A DNA stretch of 40,249 nt from assembly GCA_018333535.1 (NCBI GenBank), contig JAGXTA010000060.1, positions 1 to 40,249 of the forward strand. The letters are read 5' to 3'. Shown one piece after another: positions 1,746-39,980 of the stretch. Every line of letters begins with the position of its first letter. The first letter of the stretch is position 1. The position numbers and the translations under genes were made by a program. The stretch is from Deltaproteobacteria bacterium. Its GTDB lineage: Bacteria > Desulfobacterota > BSN033 > UBA1163. A model generated the notes under the pieces. The model saw nothing but the letters and a program-made list of their open reading frames with translations. It had not been told where the DNA came from and made no database searches.

Positions 1746-3608
1746 ATGGCAGGATATCAAAACCGAATTTTAGAAGTTGATTTATCCATCTCTCAAATGA
1801 ATATCATTGATGTCCCTGTTGAAGACAAGAGACGATTCATCGGAGGAAGTGGGGTTGCGGCAAAGCTTTTTCTCGACCGGTTCAATCCGAAGGTTGATCC
1901 ACTCTCTCCGGACAACCCACTCATCGTGATGAATGGCCCCCTCACCGGCACGACCTTACCCGGCACATCGAGGTTTGCAGTCTGTGGAAAGTCGCCATTG
2001 ACAGGGATCTGGGGAGAAGGAACCTGTGGCGGGAATTTCGGACCGGAGCTGAAATTCGCCGGAATAGATGGGATCATCTTCAAAGGTGTATCGCCCACCC
2101 CGGTCTATCTCTCAATTGAGGATGACGAGATTGAGCTCAGGGATGCTAGTGAGCTCTGGGGTATGGATAACTATATACTTACCGATTTTCTAAAACAGCG
2201 ACATGGTAAAGATAAGAACCCAAAGGTCCTGTCCATCGGTCCGGCCGGAGAAAATCTGGTTAAATTCGCGGCGATCTGTAATGACAAAGGTGATTTCATC
2301 GGCAGGACAGGGATGGGGGCCGTGATGGGCTCGAAGAGATTAAAGGCCGTAGTTGTGAAAGGAACAAAAAAAGTAGAGGTTTCTCATCCAGAGGAATATG
2401 CCGCTCTACGAAAGCTTTTAATCACCAAGTCCCGTGAAGCGATGGTAGCCCAGTCTTTTCGGTCTATGGGAACAGATGCTGGAATGGATCTTGGCATGAT
2501 GACAGGCGATGTCCCCATAAAAAACTGGATGATCGGGGAAGATCTTGAACTGTCTGCAAACCTGGGTGGTCCCGCGATGACTGAGAGGTACCTCACAAGA
2601 AATCATGCCTGCTCTTTCTGCCCGATCGCGTGCAAAAGGATAGTTAAGGTTGATGATGGACCTTTCAAGACAGAGGAGGGGCCAGGGCCTGAATACGAGA
2701 CCTGCTGCACCTTCGGGACCCTGATTATGAATAATGATCTCGCAGGTGTAATCAAGGCCAATGAGTGGTGTAATCGATACGGCATGGACACTATCAGCTG
2801 TGGTGCCACAATCGCCTTTGCCATGGAGGCTTTTGAGAAAGGGCTGATCACCAGAAAAGATACCGATGGAATTGATCTCACATGGGGAAATATGACAGGG
2901 GTCATCGAGTTACTCCACAAGATAGCTAAACAAGAAGGGATCGGGGCAGTTCTATCTGAGGGGAGCAGGAAGGCAGCGAAGAGGTTAGGGAAAGAGGCCG
3001 AGGAGCTTACCGTTGAGGTGAAAGGGTTGGAGGCTCCGATGCACGATCCACGAGGCTTCCACGGAATGGGTCTTGCTTATATGATGTCCATCAGGGGCGC
3101 CTGTCATCTCATGCACCTCAGTCTCGGCGTGGAACAGGGGATTACTACGTACCCAGAAGCCGGGTTTCAGGAAAACTATACAGGTCAAACAAGCGAAGGG
3201 AAAGCCGAGATGATAAAGCTATGTGAAGACCTTGGTCTTCCATTTAACTCCCTCGCGATCTGTGAATTCGTGGCATGGACTCTTTCGGCAAATGAGCTGG
3301 CAGAAATGGTAAGGTTAACCACGGGATTTGATTTTAGATTGAAAAATCTCCTCGCTTGCGGAGAGAGAACATGGCTCTTAAAGAGAGGGCTTGGGAATAT
3401 GATGGGAATAAGCGCAAAGGATGATAGATTGCCAAAAAGAATCCTTACTCCATTGAAAGACGGGGCTGCAGCTGGTTCTGTACCAGATGTCGAAAAATTA
3501 CTTCGAGAATATTACGAGATCAGGGGATTGGACGAAGAGGGTAAACCCAAGAGAGAGGTGTTAATCAAGGCTGGGCTTGAGGATCTGGCAGAAAAGTTAC
3601 ATGGGTAA
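1746..3608 (+). CDS. aldehyde ferredoxin oxidoreductase (tungsten-dependent AOR family)
   Basis: This 620-residue protein is full length for the AOR family. These enzymes interconvert aldehydes and carboxylates using a tungsten bis-pterin centre and one [4Fe-4S] cluster, with ferredoxin as electron partner. The N-terminus (GYQNRILEVDLS, FIGGSGVAAKLF, NGPLTGT) is typical. Cluster ligands are visible as C289-x2-C292-x3-C296 and a fourth Cys at C506 in NSLAICEF, equivalent to P. furiosus C494. No signal peptide, so it should be cytoplasmic. It has its own promoter and is followed by SCP2-like, Fe-ADH and SCP2-like genes on the same strand, suggesting coupled acid/aldehyde/alcohol chemistry. The substrate cannot be read from sequence. 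A second AOR lies at 37590-39431; the two are clearly diverged paralogues. Confidence 0.93.
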   Translation: MAGYQNRILEVDLSISQMNIIDVPVEDKRRFIGGSGVAAKLFLDRFNPKVDPLSPDNPLIVMNGPLTGTTLPGTSRFAVCGKSPLTGIWGEGTCGGNFGPELKFAGIDGIIFKGVSPTPVYLSIEDDEIELRDASELWGMDNYILTDFLKQRHGKDKNPKVLSIGPAGENLVKFAAICNDKGDFIGRTGMGAVMGSKRLKAVVVKGTKKVEVSHPEEYAALRKLLITKSREAMVAQSFRSMGTDAGMDLGMMTGDVPIKNWMIGEDLELSANLGGPAMTERYLTRNHACSFCPIACKRIVKVDDGPFKTEEGPGPEYETCCTFGTLIMNNDLAGVIKANEWCNRYGMDTISCGATIAFAMEAFEKGLITRKDTDGIDLTWGNMTGVIELLHKIAKQEGIGAVLSEGSRKAAKRLGKEAEELTVEVKGLEAPMHDPRGFHGMGLAYMMSIRGACHLMHLSLGVEQGITTYPEAGFQENYTGQTSEGKAEMIKLCEDLGLPFNSLAICEFVAWTLSANELAEMVRLTTGFDFRLKNLLACGERTWLLKRGLGNMMGISAKDDRLPKRILTPLKDGAAAGSVPDVEKLLREYYEIRGLDEEGKPKREVLIKAGLEDLAEKLHG

Positions 3609-36919: not shown

Positions 36920-37255
36920 CTACTTTAAAAATTCTTCACGGATCGGGGTGAAGGTATCCACCAGTCGTGCTTTTGGGGTAAGCGTTTGGATACTATGGGG
37001 CATATTGGACGGTACGGTAAAGATGTCTCCGGGACCCAAGCGGGTCACCTCATCCCCCAGGACGACATTGATTTCTCCGGAGGCCACATAGGAAATCTGC
37101 TCATGGGGATGGGAATGGGGTGGGTCAGGTTGAGCGGCTGGCCCATCTTCGAAATCGATGACCACCATCATCAGATTGGAGAGATGGGTAAGATACCGGG
37201 TCCGTCCTTGTGCAATGGCTGTTGGTGTCGCTTCCGAACTTATAATGATTCCCAT
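36920..37255 (-). CDS. cupin-domain protein
   Basis: This 111-residue single-domain cupin has the first metal motif PHSHPHEQ (H47, H49, H51, E52) and second motif PSNMPHSI (H87), so all usual metal ligands are present. It could be an enzyme or a small-molecule sensor. The ribosome site AAAGGA is 7 bases before the ATG. It has its own promoter and is upstream of dctP. Confidence 0.85.
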   Translation of the reverse strand: MGIIISSEATPTAIAQGRTRYLTHLSNLMMVVIDFEDGPAAQPDPPHSHPHEQISYVASGEINVVLGDEVTRLGPGDIFTVPSNMPHSIQTLTPKARLVDTFTPIREEFLK

Positions 37256-37315: not shown

Positions 37316-37350
37316 ACAATAAAAAGGCCGGCGAACAACGACCGGCCTTT
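37316..37350 (-). terminator. rho-independent terminator of the 20-codon gene
   Basis: On the minus strand: AAAGGCCGG, 10-base loop, CCGGCCTTT, then TTATTG: a 9-bp stem running into a T-rich tract (TTTTTATTG, which shares the last three T of the stem). It starts 42 bases after the 20-codon stop. Confidence 0.75.
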
Positions 37351-37391
37351 AAGGTTACGGACACATTCTGATGAGCGGTTTTATGTCATGC

Positions 37392-37454
37392 TCAGGACCG
37401 GCGTATCGATCCACAGGTCGAACAATGGGTTGCATGGGGAAACATCCATCTCAT
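37392..37454 (-). CDS. 20-residue CxxC peptide gene
   Basis: ATG at 37454 follows AAGGAGGTGA, the full anti-Shine-Dalgarno complement, with a 5-base spacer. The peptide is MRWMFPHATHCSTCGSIRRS, with C11-x2-C14 that could bind a metal or be crosslinked. It is too short for ordinary gene finding. A promoter (TTGACA, 17 bp, TAAAAT at 37509-37481) and a terminator (37350-37316) frame it as a single-gene unit divergent from the second AOR. No function is known to me. It could be a leader peptide, a metal peptide, or a small ribosomally made precursor; no radical-SAM partner is in the window. Confidence 0.6.
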   Translation of the reverse strand: MRWMFPHATHCSTCGSIRRS

Positions 37455-37480
37455 GGACCTCACCTCCTTTTCTTAAATTC

Positions 37481-37509
37481 ATTTTAAAGCGAACCTTCTC
37501 ACCTGTCAA
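37481..37509 (-). promoter_or_regulatory. promoter of the 20-codon gene
   Basis: On the minus strand: TTGACA (37509-37504), 17-bp spacer, TAAAAT (37486-37481). Expected start about 37474, 20 bases before the ATG, with the ribosome site between. Confidence 0.7.
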
Positions 37510-37531: not shown

Positions 37532-37560
37532 TTGATTGGAACATGAAATTGTGGCATAGT
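37532..37560 (+). promoter_or_regulatory. promoter of second AOR gene
   Basis: TTGATT (37532-37537), 17-bp spacer, CATAGT (37555-37560). It is only about 23 bases from the -35 box of the divergent 20-codon gene, so one regulator could act on both. Confidence 0.5.
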
Positions 37561-37589: not shown

Positions 37590-39431
37590 ATGAAACTGAA
37601 AGGTTATGCGGGCAAAATTCTGACGTTGGATCTCTCCAATTCCAAAGTTAAGGTTGAAGACCTTAATGAGCAATGGGCGACACAGTTTAGCGGAGGAAGT
37701 GGTCTTGGGGCAAAATATCTGTATGAGATGACCGATGAGAAAACAGACCCCCTGGGCCCTGAGAATCCTCTGATCTTTATGACCGGGCCCTTCACCGGAA
37801 CATCTGTCCCACTCTCCGGTAGACATGCGGTGGTCTCACGTTCCCCCCTCACCAATATCTTCGGAGAATCGGATGTAGGAGGCACCTGGGGCGCCCATCT
37901 TAAAAAAGCAGGGTTCGATGGAATCATCATCACCGGAAAATCTCCTAAGCCTGTTTATCTCTGGGGCATTGACGGAAAGGTTGAAATCCGTGATGCTTCC
38001 CATCTTCTGGGAAAAGATACCTATGAGGTCGACCCCCTCCTGAAGGCTGAAACCCATCCAAAGGCCGCCATCAGCGCTATCGGACAGGCCGGAGAGAACC
38101 AGGTCTTATTAGCTTCGATCATGACCGATGGCAACGACGGCCGTGCGGCAGGACGTTGCGGTTTGGGAGCGGTGATGGGATCAAAGAATTTGAAGGCCAT
38201 CGCCGTATATGGAACTCAGAAAGTGGAGGTCTCCCACCCGGAAGAAGTTGACCGTCTTCAAAAAGAATATGGTGCGATGATTATCAAGAATGCGGAGAAT
38301 TTTAAAAAATACGGAACGGCGGGCGCCCTCTCCACCTTTGAGGCGATGGGAACGCTTCCCCTTCAGAACTGGAAATATGTTGGACGGTGGGAAGAATCGG
38401 CGGAGAAGATCAATGGTTTCACCCTCTCCGAAACACTGTTGACAGGTCGATACTTCTGTGATGCCTGCATCCTTGGATGCGGGAGAAGGGTAAAGATCGA
38501 CCAGGGACCTTATGCCGGAGTTGATGGCGCAGGGCCGGAATATGAGACCCTTGCACTTCTCGGAAGCAACTGCCTGATCGATGATCTCGAAGCCCTCTGT
38601 TATGCCAATGAACTCTGTAACCGTTTCGGACTTGACACGATCTCCACAGGCGGAGTCATTGGTTTTGGAATGGAGGCATTTGAGAAGGGATTGATTGATC
38701 AGGAGGATACGGGCGGAATTGAACTACGCTGGGGAAAGATTGAGGCGCTCATCGAGATGATCAAAATGATCGCCCAAAAGAAGGGATTTGGAGAGGTCCT
38801 GGGAAAAGGGGTGAAAAAAGCCTCAGAAATAATCGGAAAGAATTCAGTAGAATTTGCACCCCATATCAAAGGCCTCGAACTCCCTGCCCATGACCCCAGA
38901 GGGTACAATGCAGGTGCAACAGGGTTTGCCACTTCCTCCAGGGGGGCATGCCATCTCGCCGGTCTCAGCCATACTTTTGAGAGACTGCTTAAGTCGCCTG
39001 AGATGGGTATCCCGGAGCCTATTGATCGATATGAGGTGAAAGGGAAAGGAATCCTCGCAGCCAAAAGCCAGAACCTGATGGGAATGATGGACTCCCTGAA
39101 ACTCTGCAAGTTCATCCTGTTCGGAGGGATCACCATCACCCACATCGTAGACTGGTATCGCTATGTGACAGGAAAAGAGATGTCCACGGATGATTTTATA
39201 AAAACGGGAGAGAGAATTTTCAACCTGAAGCGGCTCTACAATGTGAGATTGGGGATCAGCCGGAAAGACGACACCCTGCCCTACAGGCATCTTACTTTTA
39301 AAAGAATTGGCCAGGGGCTCACCCCAAACCTCCCCCCCCTCGGCCAGATGCTCAGCGAATACTATGAATATCGCGGTTGGTCAGAAGACGGAATCCCCAC
39401 TCCGCAAAAAATAGAAGAGTTGGGAATTTAG
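37590..39431 (+). CDS. aldehyde ferredoxin oxidoreductase (tungsten-dependent AOR family), second copy
   Basis: This is a 613-residue AOR homologue. ATG at 37590 (AAGGGG 6 bases upstream) is preferred over a GTG six codons earlier. Cluster ligands: C290-x2-C293-x3-C297 (FCDACILGCGRR) and C506 (SLKLCKF). The N-terminus GYAGKILTLDLS, the FSGGSGLGAKYL and the late TGERIFNLKRLYN are typical. It is clearly diverged from the AOR at 1746, so it likely has a different substrate. It is transcribed alone, divergent from the 20-codon peptide gene, with the cupin and TRAP genes beyond. Confidence 0.93.
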   Translation: MKLKGYAGKILTLDLSNSKVKVEDLNEQWATQFSGGSGLGAKYLYEMTDEKTDPLGPENPLIFMTGPFTGTSVPLSGRHAVVSRSPLTNIFGESDVGGTWGAHLKKAGFDGIIITGKSPKPVYLWGIDGKVEIRDASHLLGKDTYEVDPLLKAETHPKAAISAIGQAGENQVLLASIMTDGNDGRAAGRCGLGAVMGSKNLKAIAVYGTQKVEVSHPEEVDRLQKEYGAMIIKNAENFKKYGTAGALSTFEAMGTLPLQNWKYVGRWEESAEKINGFTLSETLLTGRYFCDACILGCGRRVKIDQGPYAGVDGAGPEYETLALLGSNCLIDDLEALCYANELCNRFGLDTISTGGVIGFGMEAFEKGLIDQEDTGGIELRWGKIEALIEMIKMIAQKKGFGEVLGKGVKKASEIIGKNSVEFAPHIKGLELPAHDPRGYNAGATGFATSSRGACHLAGLSHTFERLLKSPEMGIPEPIDRYEVKGKGILAAKSQNLMGMMDSLKLCKFILFGGITITHIVDWYRYVTGKEMSTDDFIKTGERIFNLKRLYNVRLGISRKDDTLPYRHLTFKRIGQGLTPNLPPLGQMLSEYYEYRGWSEDGIPTPQKIEELGI

Positions 39432-39488: not shown

Positions 39489-39884
39489 TCAGTCTTTGCC
39501 TTTTTTCTTCAGGAGGGTCAGAAAATCGGACTCTTTTGAAGTCCTGGCGTTCGATTGCACCGATTCAATTTCAGCTTTCAATTCTTCCCTTTTCCACTCT
39601 TTTTCTTTGATCAGATGTTTTTCGATCCAGTGGTCTAGGGTTTTGATATCGAAGAGAACCCGTGCTCCGATCTTGAGGTAGGGAAGTTTTTTCAGGGAAG
39701 CCATTTGATAGATGGTATCCGTTGAAAGGCTGAGGTACTGACCGGCCTCTTTGGCTGTGATCAGCCTCCGGAGTTCGGGAATTTTCTTTATCCGGTCGTC
39801 CACGCGCTCAAAATATTTTTCAGCCAGTATATCCGCCAGCATATCCAAAAATTCTTTCACGGCAGGTCTTTCCTCTCGCACCAT
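39489..39884 (-). CDS. excisionase-like HTH protein
   Basis: This is a 131-residue protein. ATG at 39884 is chosen because GGAGGAGGGAGAG lies directly upstream. The central part (RLITAKEAGQYLSLSTDTIY, then LPYLKIGARVLFDIKTLDHW) is the HTH_17/excisionase winged-helix fold seen in recombination directionality factors and phage regulators. Flanks are helical and charged. It lies next to an IS66 transposase remnant, so mobile-element association is possible, but no integrase is in the window. Confidence 0.8.
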   Translation of the reverse strand: MVREERPAVKEFLDMLADILAEKYFERVDDRIKKIPELRRLITAKEAGQYLSLSTDTIYQMASLKKLPYLKIGARVLFDIKTLDHWIEKHLIKEKEWKREELKAEIESVQSNARTSKESDFLTLLKKKGKD

Positions 39885-39980
39885 CTCTCTCCCTCCTCCT
39901 AAAAAGGCCGTCTTATTTAATACAAACGCATTAGACAGCGCAACAATAACCAAACACCAAATTCCAAAAACCGTATCACT

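Follow-up and report, generated by a model that had tools for sequence, protein, structure and literature searches.

The window analyzed here (the whole stretch of 40,249 nucleotides [nt] of DNA from a Deltaproteobacteria bacterium) contains a compact unit on its minus strand (positions 37509 to 37318), which lies between a gene for a cupin protein and a divergently oriented gene for an AOR-family oxidoreductase (Table 1). An earlier note on this DNA had proposed that a miniature transcription unit is located here, and its promoter, Shine-Dalgarno sequence, 20-codon open reading frame (ORF), and hairpin with a T-tract were all located. The promoter is back-to-back with a promoter-like site of the AOR gene, as the note had stated, and this arrangement is kept in two relatives with an AOR gene, L002 (Deltaproteobacteria bacterium RBG_16_49_23) and L004, which contain the unit too, most of their differences from it being synonymous. 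One feature does not appear in the earlier note: a conserved H-type pseudoknot overlaps the end of the ORF, with the stop codon inside it. The ORF is homologous to MKRFMIPRVAHCSEGC of distant members of the family described below, and the element is present in one copy in its own genome.

TABLE 1 Features of the unit and of its neighbors in the window
Feature	Position	Strand	Remark or basis
Sigma-70-type promoter TTGACA-17-TAAAAT	37481..37509	−	11/12 match; −35 at 37509-37504, −10 ends at 37481
Shine-Dalgarno sequence AAGGAGGTGA	37460..37469	−	Sequence
20-codon ORF MRWMFPHATHCSTCGSIRRS, stop codon included	37392..37454	−	Translation
Conserved coding core, codons 1 to 16	37407..37454	−	Family alignment
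8-nt spacer from codon 16 to the pseudoknot	37399..37406	−	Spacing of 8 nt in 59/60 members
H-type pseudoknot GUCCUGAGCAUGACAUAAAACCGCUCA	37372..37398	−	S1 GUC/GAC, S2 UGAGC/GCUCA
Intrinsic terminator AAAGGCCGG...CCGGCCTTTTT	37318..37350	−	Stem 37350-37323, counted as 10 pairs, then T-tract
Divergent AOR promoter-like site TTGATT-17-CATAGT	37532..37560	+	TTGATT 37532-37537, CATAGT 37555-37560
AOR-family oxidoreductase (AFOR_N, AFOR_C)	37590..39431	+	Neighbor, outside the unit
Cupin protein	36920..37255	−	Downstream of the terminator; own promoter-like site at 37313-37286

Conservation of the unit and its gene neighborhood

In the taxonomic order of the window, the peptide pattern matched exactly once in each of 17 of 17 genomes, and it matched none of 6 genomes from elsewhere in the class; the presence of one copy of the unit in every order genome bears out the earlier view that the ordered signals are not due to chance. 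The promoter blocks (TTGACAG/TTTARAAT) are kept throughout the order, AGGAGGTGA in the Shine-Dalgarno region is invariant among 19 aligned sequences, the terminator keeps its position with base-pair changes, and the scanned order members carry both a promoter and a terminator. The order alignment also showed third-position variation in the codons and, 3′ of them, a second conserved block (GTCCTGAGCAnGACGTnAAACnGCTC), followed by the terminator. This block is not kept for coding, because the ORF of L007 stops two codons earlier (18 amino acids) and L024 has CGA instead of the stop codon. Among 60 members of the wider family, 39 have a sigma-70-type promoter upstream (4.8 in shuffled sequences) and 26 are followed by an intrinsic terminator (0.6 in shuffled sequences). 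A strong Shine-Dalgarno sequence is present in most members. No promoter of its own was recognized for the element in families f60, f54, and f45, where it is located between same-strand genes.

The link to a tungsten AOR that had been drawn from the window did not hold. An AOR gene is present in 5 of the 18 neighborhoods in the order; it is directly next to the element in 4 of the 18, all from a single genus, and in none of about 40 neighborhoods outside the order. The AOR gene is an incidental neighbor of the micro-gene, and an AOR-specific accessory peptide is rejected on the basis of this synteny. An HTH_17 protein, a major facilitator superfamily (MFS) transporter, and a cupin protein are commoner neighbors in the order, with the cupin near the element in 8 loci. 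In the window, the AOR gene sits between the element and a gene for an HTH_17 domain protein (39489-39953, minus strand), which is among the commonest upstream neighbors of the element in the order. A second AOR-family gene is located at 1746-3608 within the 40-kb window, and both AOR-family genes score below the equivalog cutoffs of the AOR models.

The short Cys-containing peptide beside the AOR gene had also been considered as the precursor of a peptide-derived cofactor, here a RiPP-type precursor for the tungsten AOR. We regard this as hardly credible: no maturase is conserved near the element, linkage to AOR or maturase genes is absent elsewhere, near-invariance is limited to a His-Cys pair, and NCBIfam and Pfam gave no matches above the cutoff, so that the proposal found no positive evidence. 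The leader-like anatomy of the element and its position upstream of same-strand genes in many genomes might instead suggest a leader or attenuator of an adjacent gene (AOR, cupin, or others). This very improbable reading is already largely refuted. The AOR gene is divergent and rarely adjacent, almost every family has another gene downstream (cupin, DUF445-like, GrdB-like, and hemerythrin genes), and no conserved partner gene was found across the family neighborhoods examined; the regulatory cis leader suggested earlier is unsupported because there is no common downstream gene and the window unit, like many other members, ends in its own terminator.

Redox and metal genes recur next to the element (rubrerythrin, hemerythrin, PDZ/heavy-metal-resistance protein, multicopper oxidase, heavy-metal ATPase with an RND pump, and AhpC/TSA-type protein), an impression formed without a background control. 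The gene order in family f60 (L120, L122, L124, L126, L130, and L132) is rubrerythrin-like protein, FAD-dependent reductase, PDZ/metal-resistance protein, element, and hemerythrin.

The coding core and its distribution

The peptide core follows the pattern M-K-R-[FY]-x-[IVL]-P-R-[VTI]-A-H-C-x-[ED]-G-[CH] among distant members, and M-[KR]-R-[FY]-x-[IV]-P-R-V-A-H-C-x-x-G-x as a looser description of the family. For codons 2 to 16 of 33 distant members, the entropies at codon positions 1, 2, and 3 were 0.55, 0.43, and 1.44 bits, respectively. The synonymous share of codon differences was 61% in frame versus 5% and 11% in the other frames, and the median dN was 0.19 versus a dS of 1.40 for the pairs with estimable dS only (dS was saturated in 389 of 528 pairs). 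Because the codon differences are mostly synonymous in this frame only, we count the 20-codon ORF as translated, judged by codon-level constraint. The earlier note had asked whether the peptide is conserved or whether there is constraint on the RNA only, and the comparison found codon-level constraint on the peptide. What stood of its interpretation is the genuine miniature unit, whose conserved Cys-containing peptide is subject to coding constraint, and the connection to the AOR was lost. A chance ORF over a purely structural RNA, for which the overlap of the ORF end with a conserved RNA structure might be taken to speak, has next to no probability in view of the strong codon signature with frame-specific synonymy over codons 2 to 16, and family f27 keeps the peptide though the RNA has been replaced (see below). 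Antisense pairing to the 16S 3′ end beyond the Shine-Dalgarno sequence was also rejected, as the GUUCCCC similarity varies in the manner of synonymous Phe-Pro codons.

The near-invariant residues across the members are a His-Cys pair. A second Cys is common and not invariant; the His/Cys arrangements include HCxxxC, HCxxxH, HCC, HCxC, and a single Cys, and the second Cys or His is shifted or lost in some members (e.g., HCFNGA). The window form MRWMFPHATHCSTCGS is derived, with two one-codon indels that compensate each other, and L045 (MRWQFPHATHCSNSGC) is an intermediate toward it; judged from these peptides, CxxC is a derived trait of the window's lineage. A fixed metal site is unsupported because the second Cys moves or is lost, and with a derived CxxC and a varying ligand set, no positive evidence came up for the metal-binding or metallochaperone peptide that had been suggested. 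A metallothionein or metallochaperone was rejected, as there is no invariant set of metal ligands and the His-Cys pair alone is near-invariant; metal binding by the peptide is a possibility. A selenoprotein with a bacterial SECIS element was rejected as well, since UGG, CGG, or CGA can take the place of the UGA codon and the ORF ends earlier in some members.

A covariance model derived from the order gave matches in 54 of 395 genomes of the phylum, and a model rebuilt from 38 diverse members gave matches in 62 of 395, which represent about 22 families, with a best E value of ∼1e-27 and mostly a single copy. Several families have the element in all of their sampled members (f60, 7/7; f47, 5/5; f58, 4/4; f23, 4/4). 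Since a more sensitive search of 39 match-free genomes of the phylum and one spirochaete found no element, the distribution is patchy between families and solid within many. In a second phylum, which contains the Spirochaetales and to which L006 (a Spirochaetales metagenome-assembled genome [MAG]) belongs, at least 6 of 256 genomes have convincing elements, with peptides such as MKRFSIPRVAHCCGGS or MKRFTLPRIAHCCNGA, in which the stop codon directly follows codon 16. A search for the peptide pattern alone, in which the RNA part was ignored, returned hardly any families besides these (43 genomes, with a few chance matches among them). The family of this micro-gene had not been catalogued before and is found in at least two bacterial phyla.

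Cargo of a mobile element or phage was rejected, as no copies were found among the viral contigs, plasmids, and phages searched. In genome G191, the element (L025/L042) and a cupin gene with an in-frame stop share a contig of 3.1 kb in a MAG whose contamination is 9%, and the element is absent from seven relatives; this copy may be due to a mis-binned contig or to transfer.

The pseudoknot and its fixed distance from codon 16

The RNA structure is a covarying 27-nt H-type pseudoknot with the consensus GUCC-YGRGCA-N-GAC-SYNAAAC-UGCYC. For the distant set, RNAalifold predicted the 3′ stem alone, with compensatory G-C/A-U exchanges, and the invariant GUC 5′ of this stem pairs with the GAC of the loop. 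A start-codon hairpin and a fold sequestering the Shine-Dalgarno sequence, which were predicted for the order, are absent in the distant members, where the 3′ stem alone was recovered. Pairing across the two helices of the pseudoknot is 91.5%, compared to ≤44% in slid controls, and four of the pairs covary. This is a fairer test than the counts from 62 distinct pseudoknots (GUC/GAC paired in 61, one compensatory GCC/GGC included; one stem pair exchanging G-C/A-U 34:27; and AAA of the A-rich loop invariant), which are partly built in because AAA and the majority of the GUC/GAC letters were prescribed in the extraction pattern. Genomes have essentially one occurrence of the motif each, at the ORF, and a reversed-pattern control gave 1 match in 48 genomes.

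In 59 of 60 members, the exception being L123, the distance from codon 16 (or its equivalent) to the start of the pseudoknot is exactly 8 nt; since the models were built on fixed-length alignments that favor members with the standard spacing, some ascertainment bias toward this spacing is possible. The position of the stop codon drifts from −4 to +35 nt relative to the pseudoknot start, and in six second-phylum elements the distance from the ATG to the pseudoknot is 56 nt. A distance of 8 nt falls within the spacing used by ribosome-stalling structures. In family f27, the peptide is kept (MWxERFRIRPVSHCKEGC), with an unrelated 10-bp hairpin in the place of the pseudoknot (the hairpin variant, with MW(I/T)xRFRIRPVSHCKEGC, occurs in L161, L162, L164, L165, and L169), and genome G217 has two hairpin copies of the f27 type and one pseudoknot copy. 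That a pseudoknot and an unrelated hairpin lie equally far from the same codon suggests a ribosome-directed role, that of a roadblock.

Frameshift and readthrough pseudoknots of the H type resemble this one in their placement 8 nt past a codon, the 1-nt loop 1, and the A-rich loop 3, but in the element no conserved slippery site was seen, there is no conserved extension frame, and the stop codons drift. Programmed frameshifting or readthrough was rejected, as the sequence 3′ of the pseudoknot is variable, is often a terminator, and contains no conserved coding extension.

Some loci have other combinations. L157 has the peptide without a pseudoknot. In family f27, L163 (4095-4195) has a pseudoknot without the peptide, just downstream of the apparent end of a PII-like (GlnB) gene. 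In family f23, L166 (4291-4375) and L168 (4364-4447) have a second pseudoknot copy with a Shine-Dalgarno sequence and another short ORF (MAHLCSS...), and the canonical peptide is absent. A second-phylum locus (L235, 1501-1614, minus strand) has tandem pseudoknots, GTCCCGGGCACGACGCTAAACTGCTCA and GTCCCGGGTATGACCATAAACTGCCCA, after MDITRRFMMRPVTHCKEGC.

Proposed function and comparison with known systems

We favor, with about even confidence, a stand-alone micropeptide gene in which the 3′ RNA structure would pause or control the ribosome as the 16-mer is completed, over the two alternatives considered next. From the observed anatomy and conservation, we infer each functional step. A ribosome translating the micro-ORF would, with codon 16 at the decoding site, meet the pseudoknot at the mRNA entry; this encounter may pause translation or condition termination, and the 16-mer would be completed and then released or held under control. 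The released His-Cys micropeptide would most likely be the functional product, perhaps binding to a host protein as a redox- or metal-reactive ligand, and its output would be tuned by the RNA structure; the effector could also be the RNA rather than the peptide. The uncoupling of the modules in a few elements (peptide alone in L157; pseudoknot alone in L163 and L166/L168) counts against this model, as do the families without a recognized promoter, the nonstandard spacing of L123, and the preference of the models for standard spacing.

Alternatively, the element could be a dual-function small RNA, in which the RNA part (the pseudoknot or 3′ region) acts in trans and the transcript also encodes the peptide, a reading that we consider unlikely. 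Like SgrS/SgrT and VcdRP, the element would give a short independent transcript (∼150 to 190 nt) with a small ORF, its own promoter and terminator, and coding and RNA-level constraint within one molecule, and VcdRP with its 29-amino-acid protein offers a precedent (PMC8672173). The element differs from these RNAs in its much shorter core of 16 amino acids, the pseudoknot 8 nt from the codons, and the conservation in two phyla, and no base-pairing seed was identified. Internal structure explains the conserved RNA, a fixed spacing to the codons would be unnecessary for an RNA acting in trans, and family f27 swaps the RNA part for an unrelated sequence.

Of similarly low probability, in our estimate, is a nascent-chain sensor, a self-contained arrest-peptide unit in which the ribosome-held 16-mer would sense a metal or redox ligand, and arrest and the pseudoknot would decide the fate of the transcript. 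Arrest and leader peptides of the ErmCL and TnaC type have ∼16 to 24 codons, with key residues near the C-terminal end and an RNA structure just downstream. The element shares these three traits; its near-invariant His-Cys pair is close to the end of the core and would be four to five residues from the peptidyl-transferase center, the distance to the pseudoknot is fixed, and the C-terminal tail is unconserved, a geometry that is no more than suggestive of arrest at a defined codon. It differs from that type in lacking a regulated gene in cis and in having its own terminator in many members. A precedent for sensing is CruR, in which the CXXC of the nascent upstream ORF (uORF) product senses copper (PMC9426467), and some loci adjoin genes for a multicopper oxidase, a heavy-metal P-type ATPase with an RND pump, rubrerythrin, or hemerythrin. 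These neighbor themes are, however, anecdotal and without a background control, and there is no consistent downstream gene to regulate. The metal-sensing uORFs CruR and CutF (DUF2946) likewise combine a small Cys-containing ORF with downstream RNA control, but CruR stands at the head of an operon whose downstream genes it controls, whereas the element has no conserved downstream gene and its peptide of 16 to 24 amino acids is not a DUF2946 protein. Dual-function RNAs and metal-sensing uORFs are the nearest kinds, and each has a defining feature that is missing or not established here.

Library searches added one partial likeness. Residues 2 to 16 of the window peptide resemble one zinc knuckle of zf-ChsH2 (PF12172, a rubredoxin-like zinc ribbon; E = 0.0039), but this is half a ribbon only, it scores below the Pfam cutoff (17.4 versus 23.2 bits), and a distant peptide that was tested did not match. 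The peptide had no match in NCBIfam, none above the cutoff in Pfam, and none among PDB sequences, all of which serve peptides of such length poorly. The window and 14 distant loci had no Rfam match at the gathering score, and a permissive Rfam search gave chance matches in the terminator region and nothing else; a match to a betaproteobacterial toxic small RNA was rejected, as it covered the terminator only and was far below the cutoff, and PMC4603805 offers nothing relevant. A literature text search for the peptide returned nothing relevant, and one for small RNAs with a conserved pseudoknot and small ORF found no match by title or abstract.

More tentatively, the 16-codon ORF and the 27-nt pseudoknot, with their fixed 8-nt spacing, may together form a self-contained switch of nascent peptide and RNA, an ancient ribosome-borne sensor or modulator with nothing regulated in cis and with the micropeptide, the stalled ribosome, or the transcript as its output. 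If true, this would be a kind of gene without a described counterpart that is common to at least two phyla. With 16 conserved codons, the micro-gene is below the limits of gene finders and gave no match in the searched family libraries. It is mostly single copy and is retained by entire families of at least two phyla under codon and RNA-structure constraint; covariance models can recover such deeply conserved micro-genes. A nascent micropeptide coupled to an RNA pseudoknot would be a compact and testable system, and experiments in cultured species may be possible, since some members are located in single-contig, nearly complete genomes.
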